This document shows, piece by piece, positions 5,107 through 33,382 of a stretch of DNA of 35,364 nucleotides. The stretch covers positions 1 through 35,364 of the forward strand of contig WQVM01000009.1 in assembly GCA_009783985.1 (NCBI GenBank), read 5' to 3'. The notes beneath the pieces are model-generated. The model was not told the DNA's origin and made no database searches. It saw nothing but the letters and a program-made list of their open reading frames with translations. A program made the position numbers and the translations under genes. This stretch comes from Bacillota bacterium (GTDB lineage Bacteria > Bacillota > Clostridia > Christensenellales > Pumilibacteraceae). The stretch's first letter is position 1. Each line of letters opens with the position of its first letter.

Positions 5107-5910
5107 CTAGTTTTTGTGGCGGGGGGTTCGGTTTGCGGCGGAAACTATAGGGCGGTAGAGTGCGAGTATGACAAAAATGGCGGCGATTACAAGGCAAGCG
5201 ATTATAATCCATTGACGGATATCATCCAGTTCAAACGGGTCACGGTAGGTTTGGTTGGTGGTATTGTTGCCGTCGTTTACCGCCTCTATAACATTGGGCG
5301 GAATAGGTGTTATGACTTCGACAAGACCGCCGTAGACATAGCCAAAAAAAGTCCGCGCGCCGTCAAAGTAACGGACAAAATACCAAGTTGTACCGAGTAG
5401 GGGGTGTGCGAGTGTCCCCTCAATAGTTCCGTAAAAATGCAGATTAGTGTTGGGCGGCACAAGAAAAAGCGGAGTAAGGGTGTGGTCTGGGGTTGAATGG
5501 AGATAGACCCGCAACGCTCCCGTAAAGGGGCGTAAAGTTCCGACAGCGGATTTGGTAACTGGTTCGAAATCAACAAAAACTACATTTGACCGTCTGACAA
5601 AACCAAAAAGGTCATGATAAGCTACAGCAAAAAAGTCGGGGTCAGTGCGGTCCGTGACAAGGACAAAGTAATCTATTGGCAGAGAGGTCATCGGTGTAAA
5701 AGTACCGTTGTTACGGGAGTAAAGATTGGTGTCGGGGAGTATTCGTGCGTATTGTGCCCGTGTAGATGCGTGAGCGGTAGGGGTGGTGTGGGTGGTGTAC
5801 ACAACAAAAAAACCTAGCCCAAAAGTTAGGATAAAAAAAATGAATAATGAATAGCGAATAATGAATAACGATAGACGAAGTAAGTTGTTTTGTTTATGAC
5901 AATTTGGCAC
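5107..5910 (-). CDS. Membrane-anchored protein with two SH3-like repeats
   Basis: This 267-residue envelope protein has an N-terminal hydrophobic segment (about residues 10-37) and a C-terminal transmembrane helix (about 235-255, WIIIACLVIAAIFVILALY), so the middle faces outside. The middle holds two related SH3-like units: the first runs from ARILPDTNLYS to FGFVRRSNVVF, the second from GTLRPFTGALRVYL to FFGYVYGGLV. SH3-like folds outside the membrane usually bind cell wall. The start is GTG, the only plausible one in frame, with no ribosome binding site. An extended -10 box ends six bases before it, predicting a leaderless mRNA. Part of the N-terminal hydrophobic stretch is encoded by iterated AATGAATA-type DNA at 5838-5872. 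Not a phage family I recognise. Confidence 0.65.
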   Translation of the reverse strand: MPNCHKQNNLLRLSLFIIRYSLFIFFILTFGLGFFVVYTTHTTPTAHASTRAQYARILPDTNLYSRNNGTFTPMTSLPIDYFVLVTDRTDPDFFAVAYHDLFGFVRRSNVVFVDFEPVTKSAVGTLRPFTGALRVYLHSTPDHTLTPLFLVPPNTNLHFYGTIEGTLAHPLLGTTWYFVRYFDGARTFFGYVYGGLVEVITPIPPNVIEAVNDGNNTTNQTYRDPFELDDIRQWIIIACLVIAAIFVILALYRPIVSAANRTPRHKN

Positions 5911-5980: not shown

Positions 5981-6086
5981 TTAGGGGATTAGTGATTAGT
6001 GGTTAGTTATTGACGAGTGTTATAGCTAGTAGATAATCCATCATAATACTAAGTCCTTAACTAACCACTAATCACTAATCCCCTAA
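5981..6086. repeat. TTAGTGATTAGTGG-type inverted repeat upstream of TerL
   Basis: Perfect 29-base arms: the left starts TTAGGGGATTAGTGATTAG (5981) and the right ends ATCACTAATCCCCTAA (6086). The loop holds GACGAGTGTTATAGCTAGT, also present in the related repeat at 18711-18824. The right arm ends five bases before the TerL ATG, leaving no space for a ribosome binding site. Confidence 0.88.
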
Positions 6087-6091
6087 AAAAT

Positions 6092-7522
6092 ATGACAGAA
6101 GTTGAGATAATTACTGCTTTGCATCGGCTTGACACAGAGCTTGCTTGTCGGCGAAAAAAAGAGCGGCTTAGGTATTATAATGCAGGTGAGCCTATTCATC
6201 ATAAGCAGGTGATGTTTCATCAGAGCCTCAAGCGTAATCGGTGGGTGCTGGGCGGTAATAGGAGCGGCAAAACCGAATGCGGTGCAGCGGAGGTTGTTTG
6301 GATGGCTCGTGGGACAAGTCCGTATCGCCCTAACCGTAAGGAAACTAACGGCTGGGTGGTTAGCTTATCCAGAGAGGTGCAACGAGATGTGGCACAGGCA
6401 AAAGTGCTTGACTACCTTAATCCCGATTGGATAGCCAATATTGTGATGGTCAGCGGACGGTCGGACGACCCTAGAGGCGGCGTGATAGATTATATCGCTG
6501 TCAAGAGCGTGTCGGGTGGCATAAGCAAAATCAGCTTTAAGAGTTGTGACCAAGGGCGAGAAAAATTCCAAGGTACTAGCCTAGATTATGTATGGTTTGA
6601 CGAAGAGCCACCCGAGGATATCTACAAAGAATGCCGTATGCGTGTGCTTGACCGCAAGGGCGACATATTCGGAACTATGACACCGCTCAAGGGGCTGACC
6701 TTTGTCTATAATAAGATTTGGCTCAACGAAGACGGCGACCCTGAGGTTGAGTGTATCTGTATGGAGTGGGCGGATAATCCGTATTTGGATAAAGACGAGG
6801 TAGCCTCACTTACGGCGACTATGAGTGACGAAGAGCTAAAGAGTCGGCGATACGGAAAATTTGCGGCATCTAAGGGTCTTGTGTATCACGAGTTTGACCC
6901 TAAGATTCATATCATCAAACCTTTTGATGTGCCGATAGAGTGGTATGACAATATGTCGATTGACCCCGGACTTAACAATCCGCTTAGTTGTCATTGGTAT
7001 GCGGTGGACGGGGACGGCAATGTGTTCGTAGTAGCTGAGCATTATGAGGCAGGTAAGGATATCGGGCACCATATTAAGGCTATCAAGTCTATATCGGAGA
7101 GTTTGGGGTGGTATACGGATTTTTGCGGGCGGTATAGTGCTTTGATTGATAGTGCGGCGGGGCAGCGGACATTAGCGTCAAGCAAGAGCGTTGCGGAGCT
7201 ATTTTTGGACGGAGGCATAAGTGTTAATACCAAGGTCAATAAGGATTTGTTTGTCGGAATCGCTAGGGTCAAAAGTTATCTCAAGGATAGTAACGGCAAG
7301 CCGAGAATTTTTGTTTTTGAGAATTGTGTCAACTTAATTAGGGAGTTTAAGACATATTACTGGGGCGAGGGCGATGTTCCTAAGAAAAAAGACGACCACG
7401 CACTAGACGAACTTAGGTACTATATAATGTCAAGACCCGAAGCGGCATATGTGAGGGAAAAGCCTAAGGGGATTGTGGAGATTGATAAAGAGCGACAGAT
7501 TAGACGGTTAAGAAAAAAATGA
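6092..7522 (+). CDS. terL: Phage terminase large subunit
   Basis: This 476-residue protein is the ATP-driven DNA packaging motor and nuclease of a tailed phage. The N-terminal ATPase has Walker A GGNRSGKT at residues 54-61 and Walker B VWFDEEPP at 167-174, with the catalytic Glu in DEE. The C-terminal RuvC-like nuclease shows the expected acidic residues: D291 in SIDPG, D353 in LIDSAAG, and D435 or D439 in DDHALDE. Length and motif order are complete, so the gene looks functional. The start ATG at 6092 has no ribosome binding site and follows the right arm of an inverted repeat after five bases. The stop overlaps the next start (ATGA), the only tightly coupled pair in the packaging part of the module. 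Confidence 0.95.
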   Translation: MTEVEIITALHRLDTELACRRKKERLRYYNAGEPIHHKQVMFHQSLKRNRWVLGGNRSGKTECGAAEVVWMARGTSPYRPNRKETNGWVVSLSREVQRDVAQAKVLDYLNPDWIANIVMVSGRSDDPRGGVIDYIAVKSVSGGISKISFKSCDQGREKFQGTSLDYVWFDEEPPEDIYKECRMRVLDRKGDIFGTMTPLKGLTFVYNKIWLNEDGDPEVECICMEWADNPYLDKDEVASLTATMSDEELKSRRYGKFAASKGLVYHEFDPKIHIIKPFDVPIEWYDNMSIDPGLNNPLSCHWYAVDGDGNVFVVAEHYEAGKDIGHHIKAIKSISESLGWYTDFCGRYSALIDSAAGQRTLASSKSVAELFLDGGISVNTKVNKDLFVGIARVKSYLKDSNGKPRIFVFENCVNLIREFKTYYWGEGDVPKKKDDHALDELRYYIMSRPEAAYVREKPKGIVEIDKERQIRRLRKK

Positions 7523-7830
7523 TGGTCGAGCATGGGAGGGACTGCGTGGATATTGCTGATAACGACATAAAAAAAATTGAGTCGGCACTACTAAAAAAAG
7601 CTCAAGGATATACGACAGAAGAGACGGTAGAGGAGTATTCGGGTGACCAGTCACTTATCAAGCGTAAGATTACCGAAAAGTATGTGCCGGCGGATTTGTC
7701 TGCTATTAAGCTAGTGCTAGAGGCAAGTAATGCAGGCAAGGGGGAGTTAGAGGAGTTGAGTGATGAGGAGATTATGAAACTTAGGGGGAAGTACCTTAGA
7801 GAACTGGGGAAGATGGTGGTTAGTGATTAG
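7519..7830 (+). CDS. Small phage protein resembling the C-terminal part of terminase small subunit
   Basis: It is 103 residues long and starts at ATG 7519 (or the adjacent ATG 7522), overlapping the TerL stop codon, so translation is coupled. The segment ALLKKAQGYTTEETVEEYSG followed by ITEKYVPADLSAIKLVLE looks like the conserved tail of many Bacillota TerS proteins (a ...A.GY...E.. stretch, then vPpD.tAi..wL). The N-terminal DNA-binding helix-turn-helix of TerS is missing. It could be a reduced TerS or a protein that associates with TerL. The last four residues (VVSD) and the stop codon come from a repeat of the TTAGTGATTAGTGG type. Confidence 0.55.
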   Translation: MMVEHGRDCVDIADNDIKKIESALLKKAQGYTTEETVEEYSGDQSLIKRKITEKYVPADLSAIKLVLEASNAGKGELEELSDEEIMKLRGKYLRELGKMVVSD

Positions 7831-8382
7831 TGGATAGTGGTTAGTTGCGGTCTTAGTATTTTGGTTATGTAATGTAGGTGTAGGGGCGGGCGTCCCCGAC
7901 CGCCTAAATACTTCTCGCTTTAGCGTTGGTAGTAGGGGTAGGGCAATATAAGGGTGTATCAAGTGCAGTTGTATTGTAGGGGACGATGGCGATCGTCCCG
8001 AAATGTTAGGTATCAGGTATCGTTCGGGTGGAATAATACCGTTTCCGTTCAAAGTCATTGCGAGGAGCATTAGCGACCCATTCGACAAGCTCAGGGCAGG
8101 CTCCGCAATCCCATGAGGAGGGTTCTATTCGTGGGATTGCTTCGTCGCTAACGCTCCTCGCAATGACTTTTGGTAAAATGTTTTTTATAAGGAGGGTGTT
8201 CGGGCGGTCGATGCCCGCCCCTACGGAAAATAAGGACAAGTATTCGGGCGGTCTGGGACGCCCGCCCCTACGACTGTCGTATCAAGTGCAATTGTATTTC
8301 CAAGTGTAGGGGCGACATTCTGTCGCCCGAATAACAATTTATCAATATTTTATTTTATGGCAATAAGGAGAACCAAACAAAA
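7831..8382. repeat. 552-bp repeat field inside the phage module
   Basis: No gene is supported. In order: a half-unit of the TTAGTGATTAGTGG family (7806-7853), a GC-rich unit at 7880-7910, a GGGGACGATGGCGATCGTCC palindrome unit at 7976-8003, a CATTGCGAGGAGC hairpin at 8051-8170, and GC-rich units at 8188-8225, 8231-8271 and 8305-8343. A ribosome binding site for the next gene follows at about 8366. Confidence 0.8.
8051..8170. repeat. CATTGCGAGGAGC hairpin repeat, copy 1
   Basis: The outer arms AAAGTCATTGCGAGGAGC and its complement close at 8170. The left arm is interrupted by about 30 bases containing TTCGACAAGCTCAGGGCAGG, a different repeat type, with no equivalent in the right arm. The clean copy at 32455-32543 shows what the uninterrupted element looks like. 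Confidence 0.85.
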
Positions 8383-8598: not shown

Positions 8599-8945
8599 AA
8601 TAAAGATAGTAACAATCAATATTTTGTAATAAGGACAAGTATTCGGGCGGTCGGGGGCGAACCGCCCTTTGGGTGTCATTTCGACCGAAGCGGAGAAATC
8701 TCCTCATTTGGTGGTATATTAGTATAGTTTTTGAAGAGATCTCTCCGCTTCGGTCGAGATGACACCCAGTTTTTACGGGGTATAAATTTTGTTTAGGACT
8801 TAATCGTGCTACGATAATAAAGGTGAGCATTCGGGAGGTCGGGGACGCCCGCCCCTACGACTAGGGTTAGGAAAACCAACCAACTAGCCACTACTCCCTA
8901 ACTACCAAAACTAATCCCTAACCACTATTCCCCTAATAATAGATT
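8599..8945. repeat. 347-bp repeat field upstream of the portal gene
   Basis: It holds a GC-rich half-unit (8632-8665), a complete CGACCGAAGCGGAG hairpin with ends GGGTGTCAT / ATGACACCC (8671-8767), another GC-rich unit (8829-8860) and an unpaired ACTAATCCCTAACCACTATT arm (8875-8940). The last arm ends just before the portal ATG and leaves no ribosome binding site. Confidence 0.8.
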
Positions 8946-11454: not shown

Positions 11455-11459
11455 CTGTT

Positions 11460-11556
11460 GTAGGGGCGGTCGCCCTCGACCGCCTGAACACATAAGTCCG
11501 TATTATTTTGATAAGGATAATTGTTATTCGGGCGGTCGAGGGCGACTGCCCCTACG
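11460..11556. repeat. GC-rich inverted repeat between scaffold and capsid genes
   Basis: GTAGGGGCGGTCGCCCTCGA (from 11460) and its complement ending GCCCCTAC at 11556 form a long hairpin with GATAAGGATAATTGTT in the loop side. The upstream arm begins six bases after the scaffold stop codon. Confidence 0.85.
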
Positions 11557-11628
11557 ACTTGGTGTCCGTGTGTAGAACACTTCAAAGTAGAGAACAAGAA
11601 CAAAAACAATAGGAGAGAAACCAACAAA

Positions 11629-12774
11629 ATGGTTACATTACAAAGAGCAGAGGACGCACTCAAGTCCGTGTATTTGGGGACGGTGACAGAATTACTTAAC
11701 ACCAAAATCAATCCCCTTTTGGCAAAAATTGAGCAAACAAGTCAAGATGTTTGGGGTAAGGAAATCCGTAAGGCGGCAAAGTTCGGCATTAACGGCGGTA
11801 TCGGAGCAGGTGACGAGGCAGGCGAATTGCCGTCCGCCGCACCTAACAACTATCTACAATTTGTCACCACTCTCAAAAACCTCTACGGTCAAATTGAGAT
11901 AAGTGACAAGGCTATAAGGGCAAGTTCTGACGAGAGGGGAGCTTTTACCGATCTTCTTAACGCCGAGCTTGAAGGACTTTTGGAGGCTTCGAGGTTTAAC
12001 TTAGGGCGAATGCTCTATGGTGACGGCACAGGGATTTTGGGCAGAGTTACGGCGATGGGAAGCAACCCGCAGGTTGACAAGCCACATAATTTTATTGAGG
12101 GAATGGTCGTTGACTTGTACAGTCCCGACGGTAACTTTATAAGAAGCGGACTTAGGGTAGCGCATGTTAATCGTGATACAAACAGGATAAGATTTGAATG
12201 CAACAGTATAATAGCTAACAATCATCAGCTGTGTGTGCAGGGCAGTCGTGGCAAAGAGATTACGGGCTTAGGGGCGTTGTTTGACCCTACAAGGGATATT
12301 TATGGTATCTCTAGGGATAGACACCCTTTCCTTGTTCCGCATATCGCCGAGCCGACAGCAATGAGCGAAATAGCCATACAAAAAGCTATCGACAGGCTCG
12401 AGACACACGCTAATAGCGTAGTTGATTTTATTGCGGTGTCGGCTGATGTCAAGTATGAGTATCAAGAATTTTTGGGGACTTTTAAGCGTAATATCGACAT
12501 TATGGAACTCGAAGGTGGCTTTAGAACACTTTCTTATAACGGGATTCCTGTTGTGTATGACCGCTTTGTAGACCCAAAAACTATGTATTTGCTCAATACT
12601 AAGGCTTTTAAGTTGCATCAGTTGAGCGATTGGCGATACCTAGAAACCGAAAACGGCAAGATTTTGCGTCAAACACAAGGTAAGCCGACCTACAGCGCAA
12701 CACTTGTTAAGTACTGCGACTTGATTTGCGACAGACCTAACGGGCAAGCGAAATTGACAGGATTTGGACTGTAA
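11629..12774 (+). CDS. Phage major capsid protein
   Basis: It has 381 residues; ATG 11629 is chosen because AGGAGAG lies 11 bases upstream, and the longer frame reads through a repeat. The sequence shows a coat-protein pattern: an N-terminal helical part (TLQRAEDALKSVYLG), the QIEISDKAIRAS segment (E-loop and spine helix region), LYGDGTGILGRV near residue 125, a strand-rich middle and a C-terminal SYNGIPVVYDRFVDP followed by MYLLNTKAFKLHQLSDW, typical of the HK97-like P domain. It follows the scaffold gene as expected. Codon use and length give no sign of decay. Confidence 0.85.
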   Translation: MVTLQRAEDALKSVYLGTVTELLNTKINPLLAKIEQTSQDVWGKEIRKAAKFGINGGIGAGDEAGELPSAAPNNYLQFVTTLKNLYGQIEISDKAIRASSDERGAFTDLLNAELEGLLEASRFNLGRMLYGDGTGILGRVTAMGSNPQVDKPHNFIEGMVVDLYSPDGNFIRSGLRVAHVNRDTNRIRFECNSIIANNHQLCVQGSRGKEITGLGALFDPTRDIYGISRDRHPFLVPHIAEPTAMSEIAIQKAIDRLETHANSVVDFIAVSADVKYEYQEFLGTFKRNIDIMELEGGFRTLSYNGIPVVYDRFVDPKTMYLLNTKAFKLHQLSDWRYLETENGKILRQTQGKPTYSATLVKYCDLICDRPNGQAKLTGFGL

Positions 12775-12777
12775 GGG

Positions 12778-12881
12778 ATAATGCAAAACGCATAATGTCG
12801 GATAAGAAAGCAATCGAGTGTATTATCAAGTTAAAACACTCATCATTCATTTTGCGTTATGCGTTATGCGTTTGGCATTAC
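12778..12881. repeat. AATGCAAAACGCATAA-type inverted repeat
   Basis: TAATGCAAAACGCATAATG (12778) pairs with TTATGCGTTTGGCATTA (to 12881). Between them is TGTCGGATAAG followed by an AT-rich spacer. A longer relative lies between ffh and rpsP (31717-31857). It starts one base after the end of the capsid stop-codon region and fills most of the gap to the next gene. Confidence 0.8.
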
Positions 12882-12920: not shown

Positions 12921-13232
12921 ATGGATAAGGTACAACTAACAGGTGACCTGCACGATATTTGCGGACGGCTCAAAGAGATTGATGCCGGATATTATGTTAT
13001 GTTTGACGGCAAACAAAAGAGGTTTGAGGTGCATCACAAGGGGCAAAAAGGTAATACCTTGTGTGTGACTTTGCCGTATGACAGACTTGATGCCCGCGCG
13101 GTGACTTATGTAAGACAAACAAGAGCCGAGAGGTTGCGGCAAGTTATAGCCGAAATGGATAGAGAAAATGAGAGGGCGGAGAGAGAGGCGAAGGATAAGG
13201 CGGTGAGGAAAATAAGTAAGGAGTATAAGTAA
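12921..13232 (+). CDS. Conserved phage-type small protein, function unknown
   Basis: It is 103 residues long from ATG 12921, with TGGAG six bases before it; the frame is open upstream to 12795, but that part is the repeat. The N-terminal 60 residues look like a small beta-rich domain (YYVMFDGKQKRFEVHHKGQK), and the C-terminal 40 are a highly charged helix (RLRQVIAEMDRENERAEREA). It lies between the capsid and adaptor-like genes, where head-associated small proteins are common. I cannot name a family. The final codons (SKEYK and stop) run into an AAGTAAAAGGTAAAAAG repeat arm. Confidence 0.6.
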   Translation: MDKVQLTGDLHDICGRLKEIDAGYYVMFDGKQKRFEVHHKGQKGNTLCVTLPYDRLDARAVTYVRQTRAERLRQVIAEMDRENERAEREAKDKAVRKISKEYK

Positions 13233-13581
13233 AAGGTAAAAAGTAAGAAGTAAAAAGTATTGACGAGGAGCGAAGCACCTGTTTCCTATGCTCCTCGTAA
13301 TAGAGTTGTAACGAAACGCCAAAGTGGAGTCTGTCATCCTGAGCGTAGCGAAGGATCTAGCGAAGCGGAAAATGCAGGAAATTGCGATTTTTTATGGACT
13401 TTTTATTCGCTAACGCTAGATCCTTCGCTACGCTCAGGATGACAGACTAACAATGTTTCATCGTCTAAATATAGGGTTTCGTTACAACCCTAATGACGGT
13501 AGCCCTACAGGGGTGGCTCACTTTGCTCCCCCATAAGGCAAATCTCTTGTCCGCACTTTTTACTTATTACCTTTTACTTTC
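13228..13581. repeat. Nested stack of three inverted repeats
   Basis: The outermost arms are AAGTAAAAGGTAAAAAGTAA (13228) and its complement ending CCTTTTACTTT (13581). Inside lies ACGAGGAGC / GCTCCTCGT (13263-13299), then arms GTTGTAACGAAAC (13305-13317) and GTTTCGTTACAAC (13475-13487). Innermost is a TCTGTCATCCTGAGCGTAGC hairpin (13330-13446). The simple relative of the outer element, at 30249-30333, has only about 28 bases between its arms, which suggests successive insertion. Confidence 0.8.
13330..13446. repeat. TCATCCTGAGCGTAGCG hairpin
   Basis: TCTGTCATCCTGAGCGTAGC (13330) and its complement ending at 13446 form arms of more than 30 bases around an AT-rich 45-base loop. The type, a long GC-rich hairpin built on CGAAGGATC, is the third of three hairpin classes with similar design in the window. 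Only this copy is seen here. Confidence 0.85.
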
Positions 13582-13603: not shown

Positions 13604-14188
13604 GTGAAAGAAATCATACAATATGTGTCTGCATTACTACAGATGGAGGAGCTACACGAGGATATTGTTAGCGGTAAGGCTCAGACGGTGGACGGAGCTG
13701 CTGTAGTTACTGACAAACCGCACCTTAACGGGGCTTTACGACAGTTGCTCATATGTGCAAATCTGGTAATTACAGAGGTGGCGAGCTACTACTTGCCCCT
13801 TAGAGCAAGGCAGACTCTCAAGACAACAGCAAATGGCAGTATAACCTTTGCTCGTTTTAGGCATAGGCGAGTGGTCGACCTAATTAGGGTGACAAAAGGC
13901 GGTAGTAGTGTCAGGTACGAAAGACGCCCCGATAGGATAGTTTTGCCTAGAGGGACTTATGAGATAGAGTATACTTATTTGCCCCCGACTCTAAGGCTTG
14001 AAGACAGACAACCCTTCGCACACAAAATTGGTGCAAGGATTTTGGCACTTGGCACAGTCTGTGAATATTGTATCATCAATAGTATGCTGGACGAGGCAGT
14101 TATGTGGGACAAGCGATATAGAGATGCAGTAATTGCGGCGGCTATGCCAAAACGGGAAATACGGTTGCCAAGACGAAGATGGGGATAG
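13604..14188 (+). CDS. Probable phage head-tail adaptor or completion protein
   Basis: It is 194 residues long, starting at GTG 13604 with AGGAGG upstream; the earlier frame crosses repeats. The protein begins with helices (EIIQYVSALLQMEELHEDI), then a long stretch NGALRQLLICANLVITEVAS, a strand-rich region with YERRPDRIVLPRGTYEIEYT near residue 105, and a basic C-terminus. This resembles the all-helical plus beta insert plan of podovirus adaptor proteins and fits the position after the capsid gene. The family assignment is inference from position and shape. The stop codon TAG lies in the start of an iterated GGGATAATTAGGAATTAGG sequence. Confidence 0.5.
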   Translation: MKEIIQYVSALLQMEELHEDIVSGKAQTVDGAAVVTDKPHLNGALRQLLICANLVITEVASYYLPLRARQTLKTTANGSITFARFRHRRVVDLIRVTKGGSSVRYERRPDRIVLPRGTYEIEYTYLPPTLRLEDRQPFAHKIGARILALGTVCEYCIINSMLDEAVMWDKRYRDAVIAAAMPKREIRLPRRRWG

Positions 14189-14308
14189 GGATAATTAGGA
14201 ATTAGGAATTGCGGTCTGGGGGGGGGGAGTTGGGTTATCAAGTCGTAGGGGCGGGCGTCCTCGACCGCCTAAATACTTCTATCCTTATTATTCTCTCGTC
14301 CTATTATC

Positions 14309-14653
14309 AAGAACCACCCCGTCACTTCGTGCCACCCCTCCGTAGAGGGGAATTTTGAGTGGTCAAATTATTACTAAGTCCGTTAAAAAATTCCCCTCAA
14401 TGGACGCATTGTTCAAAAGGTATGGAATTGAACCCAAACTTATTTATAGTTAAGAGTAAGTTAATTGGGTGTCATTTCGACCGAAGCGGAGAAATCTCCT
14501 CAAAAGCTGTACAAAAACACGACCAATGAGGAGATTTCTCCGCTTCGGTCGAAATGACACCCTTATGACTTTCTTGCATAAACCTCACACAATACACACG
14601 CTTTGAATAATGCCCTCAATGGAGGGGTGGCACGAAGTGACGGGGTGGTTCTT
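14309..14653. repeat. ACCCCGTCACTTCGTGCC hairpin interrupted by a MITE
   Basis: AAGAACCACCCCGTCACTTC (14309) and its complement ending at 14653 are the outer arms; an inner pair AGAGGGGAATTTT / AAAAAATTCCCCT follows. The MITE at 14405-14614 splits the right part. The uninterrupted sequence, TTCCCCTCAACGGAGGGGTG, is present at 26522-26541 and shows the unoccupied state. Confidence 0.88.
14405..14614. mobile_element. MITE, copy 2, with 9-bp target duplication
   Basis: The 210-base element begins CGCATTGTTCAAAAGG and ends CTTTGAATAATGCC (imperfect terminal inverted repeats). CTCAATGGA is duplicated at 14396-14404 and 14615-14623. The interior carries the CGACCGAAGCGGAG hairpin (14469-14564). 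There is no coding capacity; a transposase acting in trans must be elsewhere in the genome. The element is homologous to 1571-1810. Confidence 0.88.
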
Positions 14654-16413: not shown

Positions 16414-17148
16414 ATGCGACAACAGGATGATTTGATGTCACAGGATTTTTTGGTGCAAAAAAAATCTAACGACCACGAAAAAACTCTCAAAAAACAAAGA
16501 ATAGTCCGCAACGAATTTGAGACCGTGGGCAAATATGATATTCCGCTTGTACGAAAACAGAGTATAGACCTAGACAAAATTGAGCCGTGGTGTTTTACAA
16601 AAACTAAGCTAGACGATACCGAAAATCAGCATAAGACAATACACTTTTTTACTTATGATTGGCTATACGAAACTGTGTACTCTAAGCCGGAAGTCGCATT
16701 AGAAAAACTTGACCAATATTATGCTCTGATGACCCCTGATTTTAGCTGTTATTTTGGGATGCCTAAGGCACTGCAAATCCATAGTATTTTTAGGAATCGT
16801 TGGTGTGGGGCTTTTTGGCAAAAACAAGGTTTTAGAGTAATTCCGACAATTGAGTGGAGTGACCCAAGTAGCTTTGAGTTTGCTTTTGACGGGGTAGAGC
16901 AGGGGGCGGTGGTTGCCGTGTCAACATATGGGCGAGAAGACTACGAGAGAGAGTTTTTGCTTGGATATGACAAGATGCTAGAAGTTATTAAGCCATCGGC
17001 GGTGATTTGCTACGGTGAGCCTTTTGCTAAGATGTCAGGCAATGTCAGAGCCTTTAGCCCCTTTAATCAAAAAGAGTTAATAGACCAGTTAGGACTAGAC
17101 GAGTATATGAGACGATATAGCGAGGGCAAACTGTATCCGAGTTATTAG
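16414..17148 (+). CDS. DUF4417 phage-associated protein
   Basis: It is 244 residues long with AGGAG 12 bases before the ATG. Residues about 85-230 match what I know of DUF4417: a FFTYDWLYETVYSKPE region, YYALMTPDFSCYFGMPKALQ, VIPTIEWSDPSSFEFAFDG, then VVAVSTYGR, VICYGEPF and a final hydrophobic-to-acidic motif. DUF4417 proteins are common in phages and mobile elements; their function is unknown. The N-terminal 45 residues are charged and probably disordered. The stop codon TAG falls inside an iterated TTAGGGGATAATTAGGG repeat arm. Confidence 0.75.
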   Translation: MRQQDDLMSQDFLVQKKSNDHEKTLKKQRIVRNEFETVGKYDIPLVRKQSIDLDKIEPWCFTKTKLDDTENQHKTIHFFTYDWLYETVYSKPEVALEKLDQYYALMTPDFSCYFGMPKALQIHSIFRNRWCGAFWQKQGFRVIPTIEWSDPSSFEFAFDGVEQGAVVAVSTYGREDYEREFLLGYDKMLEVIKPSAVICYGEPFAKMSGNVRAFSPFNQKELIDQLGLDEYMRRYSEGKLYPSY

Positions 17149-17385
17149 GGGATAATTAGGGATTAGGAATTTAGGAATGATTGTCGGGATATAGGTGTAG
17201 GGGCGGTCACCCTTGACCGCCCGAATAGGTAAAAATCCGATTGTTTTATGCCGATGTGCCACAGTTGTCGGGTTATGATATGTAGTTAGGTTGTCAAGGT
17301 GTAGGGGCGAATATTATGAGCCCGAACTTTCAAACTACAAAAAAAGCCGTACCCCGCTTGTGGAAAAACGGTTTACGGCTTATGT
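17149..17385. repeat. Repeat field before the propeller gene
   Basis: It holds an iterated TTAGGGATTAGGAATTTAGG arm (17146-17178), a GC-rich half-unit (17197-17228), a short GTAGGGGCGAATATTATGAG unit (17301-17327) and a hairpin AAGCCGTA / TACGGCTT (17345-17380) lacking a T run. No gene is seen. Confidence 0.75.
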
Positions 17386-18729
17386 GTGCAAATTAAAAAA
17401 TGGTACCAAAATATGTTTAGGCAAGTGCCGATAGGGGCGACAGTTACTCCGATTGGTACACAGGCGGTGACGGGCGGACATAACCTGCGTTTTGCGACAG
17501 GGGACAACAATCCGAATTTTGAGCTGATTTTGTGTCATAACAGAATCCCGCAAGCCCGCATCAACTTTAGGTCGCATACGCTTGGACTTGCTCCGGGGCA
17601 GCTTGTTTGTGCCGTGCCTAATGCGTTGGAGGTGTCGCTCGAAGGACAAATTTTTGAGAGGGTGTCAAGTCTGACCCGTGCAGGGGTGGGTGTACCTTTT
17701 GCGGCGAGTAGGTTTTCGTATAATCTTGATGAGGTTGATACGCTCAATATGCCTGTGAGGTTTGCGAGGGATTGCAGAGTGACGGCGGATTTTAGCGGTA
17801 GATACTTAGCTGTGATGTCGGATAAGGATTGTAAGGTTTTTGACTGTCTAGATACTTTTAGACCTATCGCTAGCCAAAATATCGAAGTCGATAGTGGTTC
17901 GGTTATGGGGATTGCTACGGACGGGACGGTTTTTGTGAGCGGGGGCGGTCGCATTACGGCATACAGGCTGACGGACGGCGGATATTTTGAGGCAGGGCAG
18001 ATTGAGGCTAACGGGGTGCGCCGTATATTGGTGTCTTCGCTTAATCCTATAGTCGTGTGTGTGGAGGCAGAGGATAGCGTGAGTTTTTTTGGATATACGG
18101 CTAGTGGATTTTCGTCCTTGCTTACGATTAGCAGCCCTAATCGTACTTTTTTTAATCAGGCGGACGGCAATATTATCCAGTTTTTTACCCCTAACGGTGC
18201 AAGCGGAGAATTTGTCGGGGCGACACATCGAGTGCTGATGCCCGAATTTGCGAGTGTACTGACCAATCAAGAGCTTAATGTCGGCAGACTAGCTAAGGTT
18301 AGAGTTTCTAGAGGTGTATTATTAGCCGAAAGAACTGACGGAAGTCGATTTTTGGTGTCGGCTCGTGGGACAACCCCGATTCCGTTGCCGTCACTAGTGG
18401 GGGCAGTCGATGTAAGGATTTTTGGACAGTATCTGCTGGTAGAATACAGCGACCGATACGAAATCTTTGTGATAAGCATAGCGACTAACAGATGCGTGAG
18501 GGTACAGACACTGGACAAGGGTTCGGGAGTGCGAGGGGTAGTACAAAACGGTCAATGGGTTGTCGTGTTATATGCGGACGGTTCTACAAGACTGTTTGCA
18601 TCCCGCTTCGACAGTCTGGCTCTTATAGGCAGTTTTGGTGTAGGGCAAGTTTTTATCGCCAATGCCTTCGCCAGACAAAATTTCAGAAATAATGAAAATG
18701 TGGAAATAAAGTTAGTGATTAGTGGATAG
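17386..18729 (+). CDS. Beta-propeller-like phage protein
   Basis: It has up to 447 residues. The frame opens with GTG 17386; ATG 17413 (MFRQVPIGA) is an equally good start, and neither has a ribosome binding site. From residue 120 on, short repeated strands of 30-45 residues recur, for example YLAVMSDKDCKVFDC, GTVFVSGGGRITAYRL, PIVVCVEAEDSVSFFGY, YLLVEYSDRYEIFVI and WVVVLYADGSTRLFA, as in WD40 or YVTN propellers. The position after the head genes suggests a tail hub or receptor-binding component (inference). The last codons (LVISG and stop) are supplied by a TTAGTGATTAGTGG repeat. Confidence 0.55.
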   Translation: MQIKKWYQNMFRQVPIGATVTPIGTQAVTGGHNLRFATGDNNPNFELILCHNRIPQARINFRSHTLGLAPGQLVCAVPNALEVSLEGQIFERVSSLTRAGVGVPFAASRFSYNLDEVDTLNMPVRFARDCRVTADFSGRYLAVMSDKDCKVFDCLDTFRPIASQNIEVDSGSVMGIATDGTVFVSGGGRITAYRLTDGGYFEAGQIEANGVRRILVSSLNPIVVCVEAEDSVSFFGYTASGFSSLLTISSPNRTFFNQADGNIIQFFTPNGASGEFVGATHRVLMPEFASVLTNQELNVGRLAKVRVSRGVLLAERTDGSRFLVSARGTTPIPLPSLVGAVDVRIFGQYLLVEYSDRYEIFVISIATNRCVRVQTLDKGSGVRGVVQNGQWVVVLYADGSTRLFASRFDSLALIGSFGVGQVFIANAFARQNFRNNENVEIKLVISG

Positions 18730-18824
18730 TGGCTAGTTATTGACGAGTGTTATAGCTAGTGATAGCCCATTGGGACACTAAGTCTATAACTAACCACTAA
18801 TCACTAACCACTATCCACTAATCA
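18711..18824. repeat. TTAGTGATTAGTGG-type inverted repeat filling the gap to the holin
   Basis: The left arm starts GTTAGTGATTAGTGGATAG and overlaps the propeller stop codon; the right arm ends CACTATCCACTAATCA and abuts the holin ribosome binding site. The loop contains GACGAGTGTTATAGCTAGT, shared with 5981-6086. The right arm has an extra internal unit compared with the left. Confidence 0.88.
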
Positions 18825-18839
18825 AAAAGGAGCAATACA

Positions 18840-19088
18840 ATGTGGGAAGAAATAATGCAAATCGTCATCTCCAGCGGTATTTGGGCAATACTTTTTTGCT
18901 CACTGCTGGCTTATCAGCTCAAAGACGGACAAAAAAGAGAGCTGCAATATCAGGAGACAATAGAGCGCCTAAGCAAAGGTCTTGAGGAGCTTACCCGTGC
19001 GTGGGACGGCATTAAGCGGGGCATAGAGGAGATTAACCGAGATATCGAAATGCTCAAAAATCAAAGGGTAATAGGGAGTAGGGGTTAG
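18840..19088 (+). CDS. BhlA/UviB-type holin-like protein
   Basis: It is 82 residues long with AAGGAG eight bases before the ATG. One transmembrane helix at residues about 8-26 (VISSGIWAILFCSLLAYQL) is followed by KDGQKRELQYQETIERL and a coiled coil to residue 75. This is the BhlA/UviB layout (short N-terminus, one helix, then a Lys/Glu-rich coiled coil), a family linked to phage holins and bacteriocin release in Bacillota. It lies after the structural genes, where lysis genes are expected. The last residues VIGSRG and the stop codon are encoded by a TAGGGAGTAGGGGTTAGG repeat. Confidence 0.75.
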   Translation: MWEEIMQIVISSGIWAILFCSLLAYQLKDGQKRELQYQETIERLSKGLEELTRAWDGIKRGIEEINRDIEMLKNQRVIGSRG

Positions 19089-19103
19089 GGAGTAGGGAAT
19101 AGG

Positions 19104-19147
19104 TCGTAGGGGCGGGCGTCCCCGACCGCCCGAATAACAATTATCCG
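19104..19147. repeat. GC-rich unit after the holin
   Basis: GTCGTAGGGGCGGGCGTCCC through CGCCCGAATAACAATTATCC is a complete half-unit of the main GC-rich family, following directly on an iterated GTAGGGGTTAGGGAG arm that ends the holin gene. Confidence 0.8.
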
Positions 19148-22440: not shown

Positions 22441-22449
22441 GTAGTAGAT

Positions 22450-22566
22450 AAGGATAATTGCCATTCGGGCGGTCGGGGACGCCCGCCCCTACGACTATTG
22501 TCTATTACAGGATGATGGATAAAACAACGACAAAAGATGTAGGGGCGGGCATAGACCGCCCGAATA
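22450..22566. repeat. Pair of GC-rich units between the terminator and metF promoter
   Basis: One unit (22450-22492) reads AAGGATAATTGCCATTCGGG to GCCCCTAC, the other (22538-22566) runs in the opposite orientation, GTAGGGGCGGGCATAGACCG. Together they form an imperfect inverted repeat with a 45-base loop. The rest of the 298-base gap holds the metF promoter. Confidence 0.78.
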
Positions 22567-23545: not shown

Positions 23546-24012
23546 TTAGAGACAAGGCAACCCCAAGATTTGCGTACAAAGAGTATGCTATGAGTATAGA
23601 CGGCGACAAGGTGGTCATAGACGGCAGGACGACCTTTGTTAGTGCTGACCTTAGTCGGCATCTTAAGGGGTGTAGGCAATGTGTCATACTAGCAGCAACA
23701 CTAGGACATACCGTAGACCGTATTTTGAAAAAGCTACAATACACCGATATGGCTAAGGCACTAGAGACGGATATACAAGCTAACTTACTCATAGAAGAAA
23801 TATGCGACAACCTACAAGAGCAAATCGCTAAGCAAGCCTTAGACAAGGGTCACCAAATAACAAATCGCTACGGTGTAGGGTACGGTGACTTCTTGCTAGA
23901 GAATCAAAGTACACTACTAAGACTAAGCGGTATCAAAGGAATAACGGTAACGGATAGCAATTTGTTGTTGCCGCAAAAATCAGTAACAGCTATAGTAGGG
24001 GTTAGGGAATAG
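23542..24012 (+). CDS. Stand-alone MetH reactivation-domain protein
   Basis: This protein is 156 residues long from ATG 23542, overlapping the metF stop codon; the longer frame from 23449 lies within metF. It resembles the vitamin B12-dependent methionine synthase activation region: CVILAATLGHTVDRILKKLQ near 50, then ALETDIQANLLIEEICDNL, YGVGYGDFLLENQSTLLRL near 110 and LLPQKSVTAIVGV. In E. coli this domain is the C-terminus of MetH and binds SAM for reductive methylation of cobalamin; here it is a separate, shortened polypeptide next to a MetH that lacks it. The last residues (VGVRE) and the stop codon come from a GTAGGGGTTAGGGAATAG repeat arm. Confidence 0.85.
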   Translation: MIRDKATPRFAYKEYAMSIDGDKVVIDGRTTFVSADLSRHLKGCRQCVILAATLGHTVDRILKKLQYTDMAKALETDIQANLLIEEICDNLQEQIAKQALDKGHQITNRYGVGYGDFLLENQSTLLRLSGIKGITVTDSNLLLPQKSVTAIVGVRE

Positions 24013-24073
24013 GGAGTAGGGAATAGTTGGGAGTAAAGGTCATCACATTACTACTCCCTAATCCCTATTCCTA
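23995..24073. repeat. TAGGGGTTAGGGAATAG-type repeat between activation gene and metH
   Basis: The left arm TAGTAGGGGTTAGGGAATAG overlaps the end of the upstream gene and carries stops in three frames. The right arm, CTACTCCCTAATCCCTATTC, ends three bases before the AAGGTGAT ribosome binding site of metH. The loop is about 30 bases. Confidence 0.8.
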
Positions 24074-24088
24074 AGCAAGGTGATAACA

Positions 24089-26443
24089 TTGAAAAACGAC
24101 ATTAAAACACAACTAGGTCAAGCTCTCACAATTTTTGACGGAGCTATGGGGACAATGCTCCAAGAGGTCTGTCAGAAGGGCGAGCAACCGGACCTTCTTA
24201 ATATTACGCATCCTGAGCTTATAACTAAGGTTCACACTCAATATGTAGAGGCAGGCAGTCATATCATTACGGCTAATACCTTTGGGGCTAATGCACTCAA
24301 GCTAAAAGGCTCTAGTTATAGCGTAGACGAGATTATCGGGTCGGCGATTAGTAATGCCCGCAAAGCTAATGCCCCTTTTGTCGCTCTTGATATAGGACCG
24401 TTAGGACAGCTTGTAGAGCCGTTGGGCACACTTGCTTTTGAGAGTGCTGTTGAGCTTTTTGCCGAGCAAGTCAGAGCAGGGGACAAGTACGGTGCTGATG
24501 TGGTCTTGATAGAAACCATGTCAGACCTATTAGAGATTAAGTCTGCCATAATTGCCGTCAAAGAAAATAGCAATTTACCCATTATCGTGTCGCTAACCTT
24601 TGAAGAGAATAACCGCACCTTTATGGGGGTGGATGCACTTACTGCGGTGACTTTTCTCAATGCTATCGGGGTAGACGCTATCGGCATCAACTGCTCCCGA
24701 AATCCATTTGATATTGCCCCTATCGTTGATACCTTTATGCGTTATAGCCGTATGCCTGTTATGGTAATGCCTAATGCGGGCTTGCCCTTGCCTACAGGTA
24801 AGTATAGCGTCAGTCCTAAGGATTTGGGGCGGGCACTTGTCGGCTATTACAAAAAAGGTGCAAGGATTTTTGGCGGTTGCTGTGGTACAAGACCCGAATA
24901 CATCGCCGAACTCAAAAAACTCCTAAACGGCAAAAAGCCACTCAAAAAGAAACCCCTAGAAGTAACAGCGATAACATCAGGGACACGCACAGAGATTTTT
25001 GATGACAAGATAACTATCATCGGCGAAAGAATCAACCCGACAGGCAAGCCTAAGCTAAAGGATGCTATCAAAAATAATGATATGGGTTTTGTGGTAGGTG
25101 AGGCGATAGCACAGCAAGAAAACGGTGCAACTGTGCTGGATGTCAATTGCGGATTACCTGATATTGACGAGCCGAGTACCTTAGCAAGTATGGTCAAAGA
25201 GCTTCAGAGCGTGATAAGTCTACCGTTGCAAATCGATAGCGCTAACCCTATGGCAATTGAGAAGGCTGTGAGAGTGTATAACGGTAAGCCCCTTATCAAC
25301 TCCGTCACGGGCGAGCAGTCGAGTATGGATAGGATTTTCCCTATAGTTAAGAAGTACGGGGCGGCGGTTATCGGTTTGACTTTAGACCAAAACGGGATTC
25401 CCAAAAAGGCAGCTGAGCGATTGCAAATTGCAAAGAGGATTGTCCAAACCGCCCAAAGTTACGGCATCCCAAAAAAAGACATTTTTATTGATTGCTTAGT
25501 GCTTACAGCATCTGCACAGCAAGAGCAGGTTTTTGAAACGGTCAAAGCAATACAGTTAGTCAAGCAAAAGTTAGGAGTCAAGACGGTTTTGGGAGTTAGC
25601 AATGTTTCGTTTGGGCTACCTAACCGTGCGTATCTCAACAGTATATTTTTGACTAGTGCTATGACAGCAGGATTGGACGCAGGTATAGTCAACCCTATGA
25701 GCGATGAGATTATGTCGGCGGTCAAGGCTTTTAGGGTGCTTAACGGCTATGACAAAGGGGCAGAAGTGTATATAGAGGCTTTTAGGCAAACCATAGAGCC
25801 GAGTGTAGCCCAAGCAGCTCAAAGCTCAGACCTAATAGAGCTGATTGCGACAGGGCAAAAGAAAGCAGCGGTGAGTGTCGTGACGGGACTGTTGGGCAGT
25901 CTTAAACCACTAGAGATTATTAACAAATACCTTGTCAAGGCACTTGATATAGCAGGCAGGGATTACGAGTCAGGCAAGATTTTTTTGCCTAGACTTATTA
26001 AGGTTGCCGAGACAGCTAAGGCTTGCTTTGAGATTGTCAAACAAGACATAAAGTTAGATGACCAAACTCTAGTTAAGGGCAAAATTATTTTGGCTACAGT
26101 CAAGGGCGATATTCATGACATAGGCAAAAACATTGTCAAGGTACTCTTGCAAAGTTACGGCTATAGCGTAATTGACCTAGGCAAAGATGTAGACGGTGAG
26201 CTTGTCGCCGGTGAAGTAGTAAGGCACAATGTCAAGCTAGTAGGACTATCCGCACTTATGACAACCACCATCCCCGCTATGAAAGACACCATAGAAAAGA
26301 TTAGAAAAGTCAGCCCCACTTGCAAAATAATGGTTGGCGGAGCAGTCCTAAATCAAGAGTACGCAAAGTATGTAGGTGCAGACCATTACGCACAAGACGC
26401 AATGGCAGGGATAAAAATAGCAGAATTAGAAAGCAAAGGGTAG
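24089..26443 (+). CDS. metH: Cobalamin-dependent methionine synthase, short form
   Basis: It is 784 residues long from TTG 24089, which AAGGTGAT precedes by about six bases; GTG 24080 lies within that site. It transfers the methyl group from 5-methyl-THF to homocysteine through cobalamin. The homocysteine domain (1-285) starts IFDGAMGTML and has zinc ligands in NCSRNP (about 202) and GGCCGTRPEYI (about 262). The pterin domain begins ITIIGERINPTGKPKLKD (about 307). The four-helix cap and B12 domain carry the cobalamin His in GDIHDIGKNIV (about 673), the DxHxxG motif. The SAM activation domain is absent and is encoded by the preceding gene, as in many Clostridia. The cofactor requirement implies B12 uptake or synthesis elsewhere. 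Confidence 0.95.
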   Translation: MKNDIKTQLGQALTIFDGAMGTMLQEVCQKGEQPDLLNITHPELITKVHTQYVEAGSHIITANTFGANALKLKGSSYSVDEIIGSAISNARKANAPFVALDIGPLGQLVEPLGTLAFESAVELFAEQVRAGDKYGADVVLIETMSDLLEIKSAIIAVKENSNLPIIVSLTFEENNRTFMGVDALTAVTFLNAIGVDAIGINCSRNPFDIAPIVDTFMRYSRMPVMVMPNAGLPLPTGKYSVSPKDLGRALVGYYKKGARIFGGCCGTRPEYIAELKKLLNGKKPLKKKPLEVTAITSGTRTEIFDDKITIIGERINPTGKPKLKDAIKNNDMGFVVGEAIAQQENGATVLDVNCGLPDIDEPSTLASMVKELQSVISLPLQIDSANPMAIEKAVRVYNGKPLINSVTGEQSSMDRIFPIVKKYGAAVIGLTLDQNGIPKKAAERLQIAKRIVQTAQSYGIPKKDIFIDCLVLTASAQQEQVFETVKAIQLVKQKLGVKTVLGVSNVSFGLPNRAYLNSIFLTSAMTAGLDAGIVNPMSDEIMSAVKAFRVLNGYDKGAEVYIEAFRQTIEPSVAQAAQSSDLIELIATGQKKAAVSVVTGLLGSLKPLEIINKYLVKALDIAGRDYESGKIFLPRLIKVAETAKACFEIVKQDIKLDDQTLVKGKIILATVKGDIHDIGKNIVKVLLQSYGYSVIDLGKDVDGELVAGEVVRHNVKLVGLSALMTTTIPAMKDTIEKIRKVSPTCKIMVGGAVLNQEYAKYVGADHYAQDAMAGIKIAELESKG

Positions 26444-26797
26444 TGAGTAGTGGCTAGTTGCGGACTTAGTATTCGGGACACCGAAGACGGGCGTTCCGAA
26501 TAACAATTATCCGTTAAAAAATTCCCCTCAACGGAGGGGTGGCACGCTTGCGTGACGGGGTGGTTTGGTAGTAGGGCGAGGGAATAATAAGGATAATTAT
26601 TATTTGGACTCATAGTCGAAGACCAAGCGAAGCGTCTATTCGCCCCTACGATTGGGAAAACAACTGTAGTCTAAATTCCAAATGTAGGGGACGCCGCCTT
26701 CGGCGTCCCGAATACTCTTATCCTTTTTCTATCTATTTTCTTCTTATTATATCAAAAAAACATTCAAACTTATTTTGAAGTTTTGAGATGAAGATAA

Positions 26798-28469: not shown

Positions 28470-28574
28470 AGCTAGGTATCATTTCGACCGAAGCGGAGAA
28501 ATCTCCCTCAAAGACTGTGTTAAAATATAGCAAATCAGGAGATTTCTCCGCTTCGGTCGAAATGATACCTAGCT
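28470..28574. repeat. CGACCGAAGCGGAG hairpin, stand-alone copy
   Basis: AGCTAGGTATCATTTCGACC (28470) and its complement ending CCTAGCT pair over about 38 bases around a 29-base loop. The outer bases GGTATCAT match ATGATACC, while other copies read GGTGTCAT / ATGACACC, a paired change. The flanking MITE ends seen at 1571 and 14405 are absent here. The element begins 54 bases after the rubrerythrin stop codon. Confidence 0.9.
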
Positions 28575-28636
28575 TACCGACATTTTAGGGGATATGCAAG
28601 TATTGCGATTTATTTTGCACACAAGGGACTATTCGC

Positions 28637-30020: not shown

Positions 30021-30260
30021 GTGAAAACGATTGAGGCGGCGATATTGCTTGATTATTACGGTCCGCTACTTACTGATAAGCAGAGGCGGATAATGGAATT
30101 GTTTTGCAATTTTGATTTGACGCCGAGTGAGATTGGGGAAGAACTTGGAATGACGAGACAGGCGGCACACGAGGTTTTTGTTAAGTGTTGTGCGGTGCTT
30201 GAGGAGTATGAGAAGAAACTAGGATTTATAGAAAAAATAAGTAGGTTAAGTAAAAGGTAA
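30021..30260 (+). CDS. ylxM: YlxM/p13-like HTH protein
   Basis: It is 79 residues long, starting at GTG 30021. The frame is open back to 29985, but that TTG belongs to the -35 box. The protein is the small helix-turn-helix partner encoded before ffh in most Bacillota: EAAILLDYYGPLLTDKQRRI, then LFCNFDLTPSEIGEELGMTR with QAAHEVFVKC, as in region-4 type HTH proteins. Its exact role is unsettled; it is thought to act with the signal recognition particle or regulate the operon. It is shorter than the usual 105-115 residues, lacking the C-terminal tail. The last residues SKR and the stop codon lie in an AAGTAAAAGGTAAGAAG repeat arm. Confidence 0.85.
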   Translation: MKTIEAAILLDYYGPLLTDKQRRIMELFCNFDLTPSEIGEELGMTRQAAHEVFVKCCAVLEEYEKKLGFIEKISRLSKR

Positions 30261-30333
30261 GAAGTAAAAAGTGTTGTCGGGGAGTTAATATATATATAAG
30301 TCTGCACTTTTTACTCTTTACCTATTACTTTTA
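30249..30333. repeat. AGTAAAAGGTAAGAAG inverted repeat filling the ylxM-ffh gap
   Basis: The left arm AAGTAAAAGGTAAGAAGTAA overlaps the ylxM stop codon, and the right arm CTTTTTACTCTTTACCTATT ends 15 bases before the ffh ATG. The 28-base loop contains a TATATATATA run. It is the simple form of the nested element at 13228-13581. Confidence 0.85.
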
Positions 30334-32454: not shown

Positions 32455-32543
32455 TCATTGCGAGGAGCGAAAGCGACGAAGCAATCCCATGTAAAGTGTT
32501 CTATTCGTGGGATTGCTTCGTCGCTTTCGCTCCTCGCAATGAC
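32455..32543. repeat. CATTGCGAGGAGC hairpin between rpsP and khpA
   Basis: Perfect 36-base arms, GTCATTGCGAGGAGCGAAAG at the left and its complement ending at 32543, enclose a 17-base loop. It is the uninterrupted form of 8051-8170. It lies inside a housekeeping operon, 58 bases before the khpA start, and lacks a T run. Confidence 0.92.
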
Positions 32544-32601
32544 TACAATGTTTTGCGGAGGATTTCTGCCTCTCGCAAAGACATCATAGGAGTATAACGC
32601 C

Positions 32602-32835: not shown

Positions 32836-33335
32836 TGGTTGCAATCGGTAAAATTGTCAAAGCGCAAGGAATAAGAGGCGAAGTTAAAGTTATGTCTCTT
32901 ACCCGAGATGTCACTCATTTTGCCGTGCTTAAAAATGTCTATATAGACGGTGTTTTGTATGACATCAAAGCGGTCAGAATTAGCGGTGATTTTGCGTATT
33001 TGCTATTAGACGGGATTAGTGACCGCAATACTGCCGAAAGTCTTAGGAACAAACAAATCAGTATAGAGCGTGACAAAGTTAAACCTTTGGACACGGACGA
33101 ATATTATATTTCGGACCTTATTGGTTGCCGTGTGGTGACTACTGACGGGTTAGAAATCGGGACACTTGCCGAGGTTATTGAGACGGGTACGGCAGATGTT
33201 TTTGTGGTCAAAAGCACAGACGGTAAGGATGTGCTTTTTCCGCATTTGACGAGAGTTGTTGTCGGAGTTGACCTAGGGAGTAGAGTTGTAACGGTTGATA
33301 AGACGGAACTGGATAAGGTGATTGTTATCAATTAG
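32835..33335 (+). CDS. rimM: Ribosome maturation factor RimM
   Basis: It is 166 residues long. It assists 30S assembly by binding S19 and the 16S rRNA head. The N-terminal beta barrel (IGKIVKAQGIRGEVKVMSLT, then GISDRNTAESLRNKQISIER) and the C-terminal PRC barrel (YYISDLIGCRVVTTDGLEIG, VFVVKSTDGKDVLFPHLTRV) are both intact. It starts on the last base of the khpA stop codon. The last residues IN and the stop codon TAG are within an ATTAGGAATT repeat arm. Confidence 0.96.
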   Translation: MVAIGKIVKAQGIRGEVKVMSLTRDVTHFAVLKNVYIDGVLYDIKAVRISGDFAYLLLDGISDRNTAESLRNKQISIERDKVKPLDTDEYYISDLIGCRVVTTDGLEIGTLAEVIETGTADVFVVKSTDGKDVLFPHLTRVVVGVDLGSRVVTVDKTELDKVIVIN

Positions 33336-33382
33336 GAATTATTGCTAAAATTATTAGTTTAATAAGTCAGCAATTCCTAATT
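33330..33382. repeat. ATTAGGAATT inverted repeat between rimM and trmD
   Basis: AATTAGGAATTATTGCT (from 33330) and AGCAATTCCTAATT (to 33382) pair with a small bulge. The left arm supplies the rimM stop codon; the right arm ends nine bases before the trmD ATG and leaves no purine-rich ribosome binding site. Confidence 0.8.

Follow-up and report, generated by a model that had tools for sequence, protein, structure and literature searches.

Heptad-armed palindromes in tight operon gaps of a Pumilibacteraceae genome: probable MITE-like elements whose arms often carry the upstream stop codon

Genes and repeats of the window

The stretch of DNA analysed here, referred to as the window, comprises 35,364 nucleotides (positions 1 to 35,364 of contig WQVM01000009.1, contig 9 of assembly GCA_009783985.1) from a Bacillota bacterium of the family Pumilibacteraceae. 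The assembly totals 1.6 Mb in 110 contigs and is 88% complete. Among the genes of the window are those for a P22/SU10-like portal protein, a DUF4417 protein and a BhlA holin, followed by metH, ylxM, ffh and rimM. The name metH is that of the initial annotation; YlxM and RimM were confirmed by Pfam. For the prophage portal protein two relatives were found at 51% identity.

Several gene ends in the window coincide with arrays of degenerate seven-base units (heptads), most of which form the arms of palindromes. At the end of a propeller-like gene, for example, the reading frame closes as ...LVISG* within TTAGTGATTAGTGGATAGTGGCTAG; this is followed by a core, the complementary arm ACTAACCACTAATCACTAACCACTATCCACTAATCA, the sequence AAAGGAG and the ATG of the next gene. 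The features are listed below, with "unstranded" marking those to which no strand was assigned.

5839..5871, forward strand: AATGAATAACGAATAG heptad array of the AACGAAT family
5981..6086, unstranded: heptad palindrome of the TAGTGRT family with arms of 29 nt, directly 5' of the gene at 6092; predicted RNA fold -57.7 kcal/mol, z -12.4
7816..7849, forward strand: left arm (TAGTGRT) in which the 103-aa TerS-like gene ends (stop 7830); heptads of opposite orientation lie at 8889-8932
12778..12870, unstranded: heptad palindrome of the CATAACG family, 3' of a gene that ends at 12774; arms at 12778-12797 (left, ATAATGCAAAACGCATAATG) and 12845-12870 (right), core from TCGGATAAGAAAGCAATC onward; the core resembles that of element L005_1607
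13225..13581, unstranded: AAGTAAR element with arms at 13225-13259 (left) and about 13553-13581 (right), interrupted at 13332-13450 by another repeat, GTCATCCTGAGCGTAGCGAAGGATCTAGCG
14184..14210, forward strand: short AATTAGG array following the gene whose end is at 14188
17152..17178, forward strand: short AATTAGG array 3' of the DUF4417 gene, whose stop is at 17148
18712..18824, unstranded: heptad palindrome of the TAGTGRT family separating the propeller-like gene from that of the BhlA holin; arms at 18712-18741 (left) and 18788-18824 (right), core ends TTGACGAGTGTTATAGC / GACTTAGTGTCCC; predicted RNA fold -46.2 kcal/mol, z -6.0
18727..18729, forward strand: TAG stop of the propeller-like gene, from the third heptad of the left arm
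19072..19111, forward strand: TAGGGAR heptad array at the holin gene end (stop 19088), without a clear partner arm
23996..24071, unstranded: heptad palindrome with TAGGGAR words, occupying the gap between a 187-aa gene (stop 24012) and metH
26438..26459, forward strand: GGGTAGT GAGTAGT GGCTAGT array that supplies the metH stop (26443) and is followed by TGCGGACTTAGTATT, a core end
30248..30330, unstranded: AAGTAAR heptad palindrome occupying the ylxM-ffh gap; the ylxM stop, TAA at 30258-30260, lies within the left arm
33330..33382, unstranded: short element separating rimM (stop TAG at 33333-33335) from the next gene, with TTGCTAAAATTATTAGTTTAATAAGTCAGCAA enclosed by arms of one or two AATTAGG heptads each; its core resembles that of other AATTAGG copies
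7879-7915, 11459-11559, 14244-14280, 17196-17232, 19105-19141, 22447-22496 and others: REP-like hairpins

The presence of GTCATCCTGAGCGTAGCGAAGGATCTAGCG nested within the element at 13225-13581 points to repeated insertion at one junction. Three further kinds of repeat were observed. The REP-like hairpins, which are GC-rich and of the form GTAGGGGCGGGCG...CCGCCCGAATAACAATTATCC, are abundant in the longer intergenic regions of the window. A MITE-like repeat, TGTCATTTCGACCGAAGCGGAGAAATCTCC, is present at 1647-1734, 8669-8772, 14465-14560 and 28472-28575, with two of the copies identical over 88 nt, and the repeat GTCATTGCGAGGAGCGAAAGCGACGAAGCAATCCC occurs in inverted pairs at 8054-8168 and 32455-32544, the copies being 91% alike. 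A search of the whole window against Rfam at the gathering threshold matched a tRNA alone and no family for the heptad elements.

Period, words and core of the heptad palindromes

The heptad elements were surveyed in 820 kb of the same genome, about half of it, made up of the window and forty further stretches. Arms were scored as heptad when at least 13 of 18 positions matched at lag 7. This sample contained 235 intergenic palindromes, 62 of them with heptad arms, corresponding to approximately one heptad palindrome per 13 kb; palindromes with arms of period 5, 6, 8, 9, 10 or 11 numbered 0-1 each. The unit is therefore seven bases and not the six to eight that had been proposed from the window. 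In the window itself, six arrays reached at least 17 of 21 matches at lag 7 and none did so at the neighbouring lags, while in 435 kb we counted 65 arrays at lag 7, 33 at the harmonic lag 14 and 0-7 at each of the remaining lags tested.

The heptad palindromes measure roughly 65-220 bp overall, most of them 70-190 bp; in each, a core of mostly 10-70 nt separates a pair of inverted arms about 20-40 nt long. Some nine families can be distinguished by their words: AAGTAAR, AATTAGG, TAGTGRT, AATTATA, ACTTAAA, CAATGCT, GAATATT, CATAACG and AACGAAT. The two arms of one element have their words in common, often in a different order. These families had been described as unrelated-looking, but alignment from the inner arm ends revealed a core common to families with different heptads. 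The core is slightly asymmetric, reading ...(G)CGGACTTAGT at one end and ...TTGACKWAGTGTTTT at the other; its end types are (G)CGGACTTAGT and TTGAC[TGA][T]AGTGTTTT, and one element often has one of each. The motif G[AG]C[TGA]T?AG was present in 52 of the 124 half-elements, whereas 500 shuffles gave 3.9 on average and 10 at most, a comparison which is descriptive since the motif was derived from the elements in which it was counted. AATTAGG copies at dispersed sites have near-identical cores.

Similar elements were observed elsewhere. Another genome of the same family (G434) has about 16 elements in 94 kb around a TCGGAT...ATCCGA core (L272, L277, L285, L286, L287), and its further heptad words are AGATAAC, AGTGATA, GTGAGGA, AAATTAC and AATGCAG. 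Two Bacteroidales MAG species (L053 and L100) carry an orthologous AATTAGG palindrome at the same site, in which the words of the left arm differ and the right arm is unchanged; this pair could be of use for dating arm changes.

Position in operon gaps and relation to stop codons

Using gene calls from a simple hexamer model rather than a curated annotation, 58 of the 62 heptad palindromes in the 820 kb were found to lie between genes on the same strand. Forty-four occupy co-directional gaps in which only 0-30 nt remain when the element itself is excluded. Gaps of this size account for approximately 1.75 kb of roughly 105 kb of intergenic DNA, and 44 of the 151 present carry a heptad element; among the other palindromes, 6 of 124 are in such tight gaps. 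Long intergenic regions are nearly empty of heptad elements. With the initial annotation came a check for genome-wide enrichment of arms at stop codons, and the check did not refute the idea: the outer arm edge lies a median of 1.5 nt inside the upstream stop. Since the edge on the other side has a median distance of 11.5 nt to the next start, it is the tight operon gap that is enriched for arms, and not stops as such. The upstream stop is overlapped by 35 of the 62 elements and the downstream start by 7, which would fit if arms can stand in for a stop codon but not for a start codon.

Relatives have corresponding junctions that lack the element. In genomes of the same family none was present in the readable cases at the rpmH-rnpA junction, and none at the ylxM-ffh junction, where the genes overlap or are separated by about 10 nt, except in G434, which has an element with a different heptad (AATGCAG) and a related core. 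Upstream of rimM, the same-genus genome G019 reads TAA-GGCTT-ATG, that is, a stop, about 5 nt and an ATG, while G434 has, between its stop and the ATG, an AATGATA-armed palindrome of about 128 bp and then six bases. No target-site duplication was identified, the flanks of this G434/G019 junction being too diverged to define the exact insertion point. RpmH has kept its family C-terminus, KPLGSN, with the stop at the first AATTAG of the arm. The YlxM of the window (30248-30260) ends at the arm and is without the 20-25 or so residues which follow the KLGF motif in most YlxM proteins of the family, so that insertion may have cost it C-terminal residues. Insertion at stop codons, one of the two explanations originally offered, is thus supported in a modified form, namely insertion between stop and start in tight operon spacers.

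The elements span nearly the whole distance from stop to start, their arms co-vary and their predicted RNA folds are strong (z -4 to -12), which would suit functional intercistronic hairpins kept for mRNA stability, for processing, or for translational coupling in which the stop and the next start are brought together. Yet A-C mismatches between the arms (54) are as frequent as G-U mismatches (42), as for palindromy at the level of DNA, and nothing here points to selection on the sense transcript; that version of the proposal was rejected. Further, the junctions of relatives do without the element and no common gene set was noticed. We regard a functional RNA hairpin as unlikely.

The observation from which this work departed, that the arms of these repeats begin a few codons before the upstream stop and supply it in all three frames, is largely real. 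Of the stops at the 62 gene ends, 28 lie at least 3 nt inside the arm and 11 no more than 2 nt from its edge; another 17 precede the arm by 3-30 nt and the remaining 6 are more distant, so the description holds for about half of the cases. Among the gene ends singled out in the window, the arm gives the stop at 7830, 13232 (where the TAA comes from the first heptad, AAGTAAA), 18729, 19088, 24012, 26443 and 30260. At 14188, 17148 and 33335 the TAG falls where the array begins and could be the gene's own; in alignments, the C-terminus of RimM agrees to within two residues with that of most homologues.

Read inward, 86 of 122 arms (70%) have stops in all three frames, compared with 41 of 122 read outward and with 16% after shuffling the letters of each arm. 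This, like the overlap of 35 of the 62 elements with the upstream stop, speaks for cassettes maintained by selection to guarantee termination in every frame at gene ends or to aid ribosome release. However, permutation of the seven columns within the unit, with the period kept, already gives 54%, because 7 = 1 mod 3 and a single stop per unit reaches every frame. With one vote per family, inward three-frame stops are found in 8 of 9 families against about 7.1 expected from permuted units, and the difference between inward-only (4) and outward-only families (1) is not significant. Moreover, the CAATGCT family has no inward stop and yet occupies the same kind of site: at four of its six gene ends the arm comes after a native stop, at a distance of 0 to 5 nt, and in the other two the gene reads 34-35 nt through the arm to a stop in the core. 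Over all families, a native stop precedes the arm in many cases, in 17 of them by 3-30 nt. On these three grounds (the permuted-unit control, the stop-free family and the native stops) we rejected a selected stop cassette, which in our judgement is very improbable. The precedent for the stop logic is the TAACTGA heptamers, which have stops in all frames and are hence necessarily at ORF ends, 13 sets overlapping the upstream stop (PMC4679880).

Relation to known repeats and probable origin

Cyanobacterial STRR sequences are reportedly degenerate, intergenic tandem heptads with several words per genome and with small repeats inserted among the heptads, and are said to be known mainly as direct arrays. 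The elements described here are likewise intergenic tandem degenerate heptamers, but form inverted pairs around a common core instead of head-to-tail arrays without an inverted partner. Heptamer repeats are known in cyanobacteria and Beggiatoaceae, TAACTGA also in Bacteroidetes (MacGregor 2015, PMC4679880). The TAACTGA repeats share with ours the tandem heptamers, the intergenic position, the forward three-frame stops and the overlap of upstream stops; they differ in consisting of one word in direct orientation, hardly ever inverted (1/170), in lying usually just upstream of starts, and in having no palindromic core (PMC4679880). The layout is also that of the class 3 sites of Geobacter metallireducens, five tandem heptanucleotides (MTYCTGA) paired on opposite strands, comprising 16 sequences of one word, for which the main text and legends describe no core, operon-gap location or several families (PMC2700814). 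Our literature search, mostly outside subscription journals, found no paper with the heptad strings of this genome.

The G. metallireducens arrays were called predicted global regulator binding sites (PMC2700814) and the TAACTGA repeats were suggested as sites of a translational regulator (PMC4679880). Binding by a DNA- or RNA-binding protein that reads repeats would be in keeping with a fixed period and variable words, but at least nine heptad words in one genome could hardly be read by one regulator and there is no candidate protein. We accordingly think this reading very doubtful. An ordinary REP/RAYT-type system, with hairpins mobilised by an IS200-like Y1 transposase, is the least probable and was dismissed, as the two PF01797 matches and the REP-like GTAGGGGCGG hairpins of this 88% complete genome are outweighed by heptad elements that lack the GTAG-type foot and GC-rich hairpin of REPs, by a PF01797 distribution that does not track heptad richness (genome G010 has six matches and one heptad hit, and element-poor relatives have the gene as well), and by the lack of heptad words or GTAGGGGC within about 1.5 kb of the Y1 gene on contig C13. 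That gene (C13:17587-17880, L293) is located upstream of an argininosuccinate-synthase-like gene.

Palindromes of facing AATTAGG arms are present in at least 119 stretches of named genomes from many phyla. Carriers among the matches listed include Bacteroidales, Prevotellaceae, Selenomonadaceae, Oscillospiraceae, Chitinophagaceae, Verrucomicrobium, Treponema, Chloroflexi, Acidobacteria, Thermoanaerobaculales, Latescibacteria, Ignavibacteria and others. Among the same listed matches, 55 of 73 classifiable cases are between same-strand genes, 28 of the 73 have a residual spacer of no more than 30 nt, and the arm starts within 10 nt of the stop at 44 of 76 gene 3' ends; the tight-gap rule is thus strongest in the genome of the window and weaker across phyla. 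The cores of the distant cases look different from those of the window, and the likeness observed is one of pattern. Within the class to which the window belongs, 1 of 390 other sampled genomes has the pattern, making the distribution patchy. Viral contigs yielded the AATTAGG palindrome pattern in only two stretches and the AAGTAAR pattern in none, and spread by phages was discarded on this basis. One of the rare viral cases, a 100 kb IMG/VR contig (L178), has two AATTAGG palindromes 1.2 kb apart.

The reading we prefer, with a probability of about 0.62, is that the heptad elements are MITE-like palindromes resident in tight operon gaps, and that the stops supplied by their arms are a by-product and not the reason for the elements. 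Like MITEs, REPINs and small dispersed palindromes, they are about 100 bp long, palindromic, non-coding and intergenic, and occur in dozens to hundreds of copies; the 62 dispersed copies and the variable occupancy of the rpmH-rnpA, ylxM-ffh and pre-rimM junctions are as in MITEs. The ends of MITEs are conserved, while in the heptad elements the ends are the most variable part, the arms differing between families, and only the core is conserved. No transposase for the heptad elements was identified, and a non-exhaustive search gave no conserved terminal inverted repeats with a transposase-bearing parent.

From these features we infer mobility, tolerance of insertion and homogenisation of the arms. 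Insertion would take place mainly into very short co-directional spacers, beside the upstream stop and just before the region of the downstream start. Insertion a few codons 5' of the native stop, or into it, would be tolerated when the arm soon gives another stop, and since a period of seven puts the stop of the unit in all frames within three units, the range of tolerated sites would be broadened. Simple tolerance leaves the emptiness of long intergenic regions unexplained, and some targeting step or positive role has still to be invoked. Matched arms with different words in each element are best explained by tandem slippage in one arm, with template switching across the hairpin then carrying the change over to the second arm, and it is probably such switching that keeps the arms matched. 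Reports on template switching describe homogenisation of the arms of inverted repeats (PMC8604942) as well as the creation and maintenance of hairpins (PMC8794818). Writing of the heptads by a telomerase-like reverse transcriptase was rejected, as there was no RVT_1 match in the 88% complete genome.

The stop-codon property is arithmetic and should not be taken for a termination device; where an annotated protein has a short C-terminal tail, VVSD or VISG for instance, a repeat can be what encodes it. It is possible, and we put it forward tentatively, that such intercistronic palindromes form a widespread class in which the core stays constant and both heptad arms of an element are rewritten jointly, with words that differ by element and by genus. 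Should the rewriting of arms prove true, it would imply a dedicated mechanism, either for writing seven-base words into the two arms or for targeting operon gaps. If the class is real, palindromic insertions can fill some 30% of a genome's tightest co-directional gaps with no visible break in the operon, and the elements would offer a clean case for the origin of long hairpins and the upkeep of arm matching.
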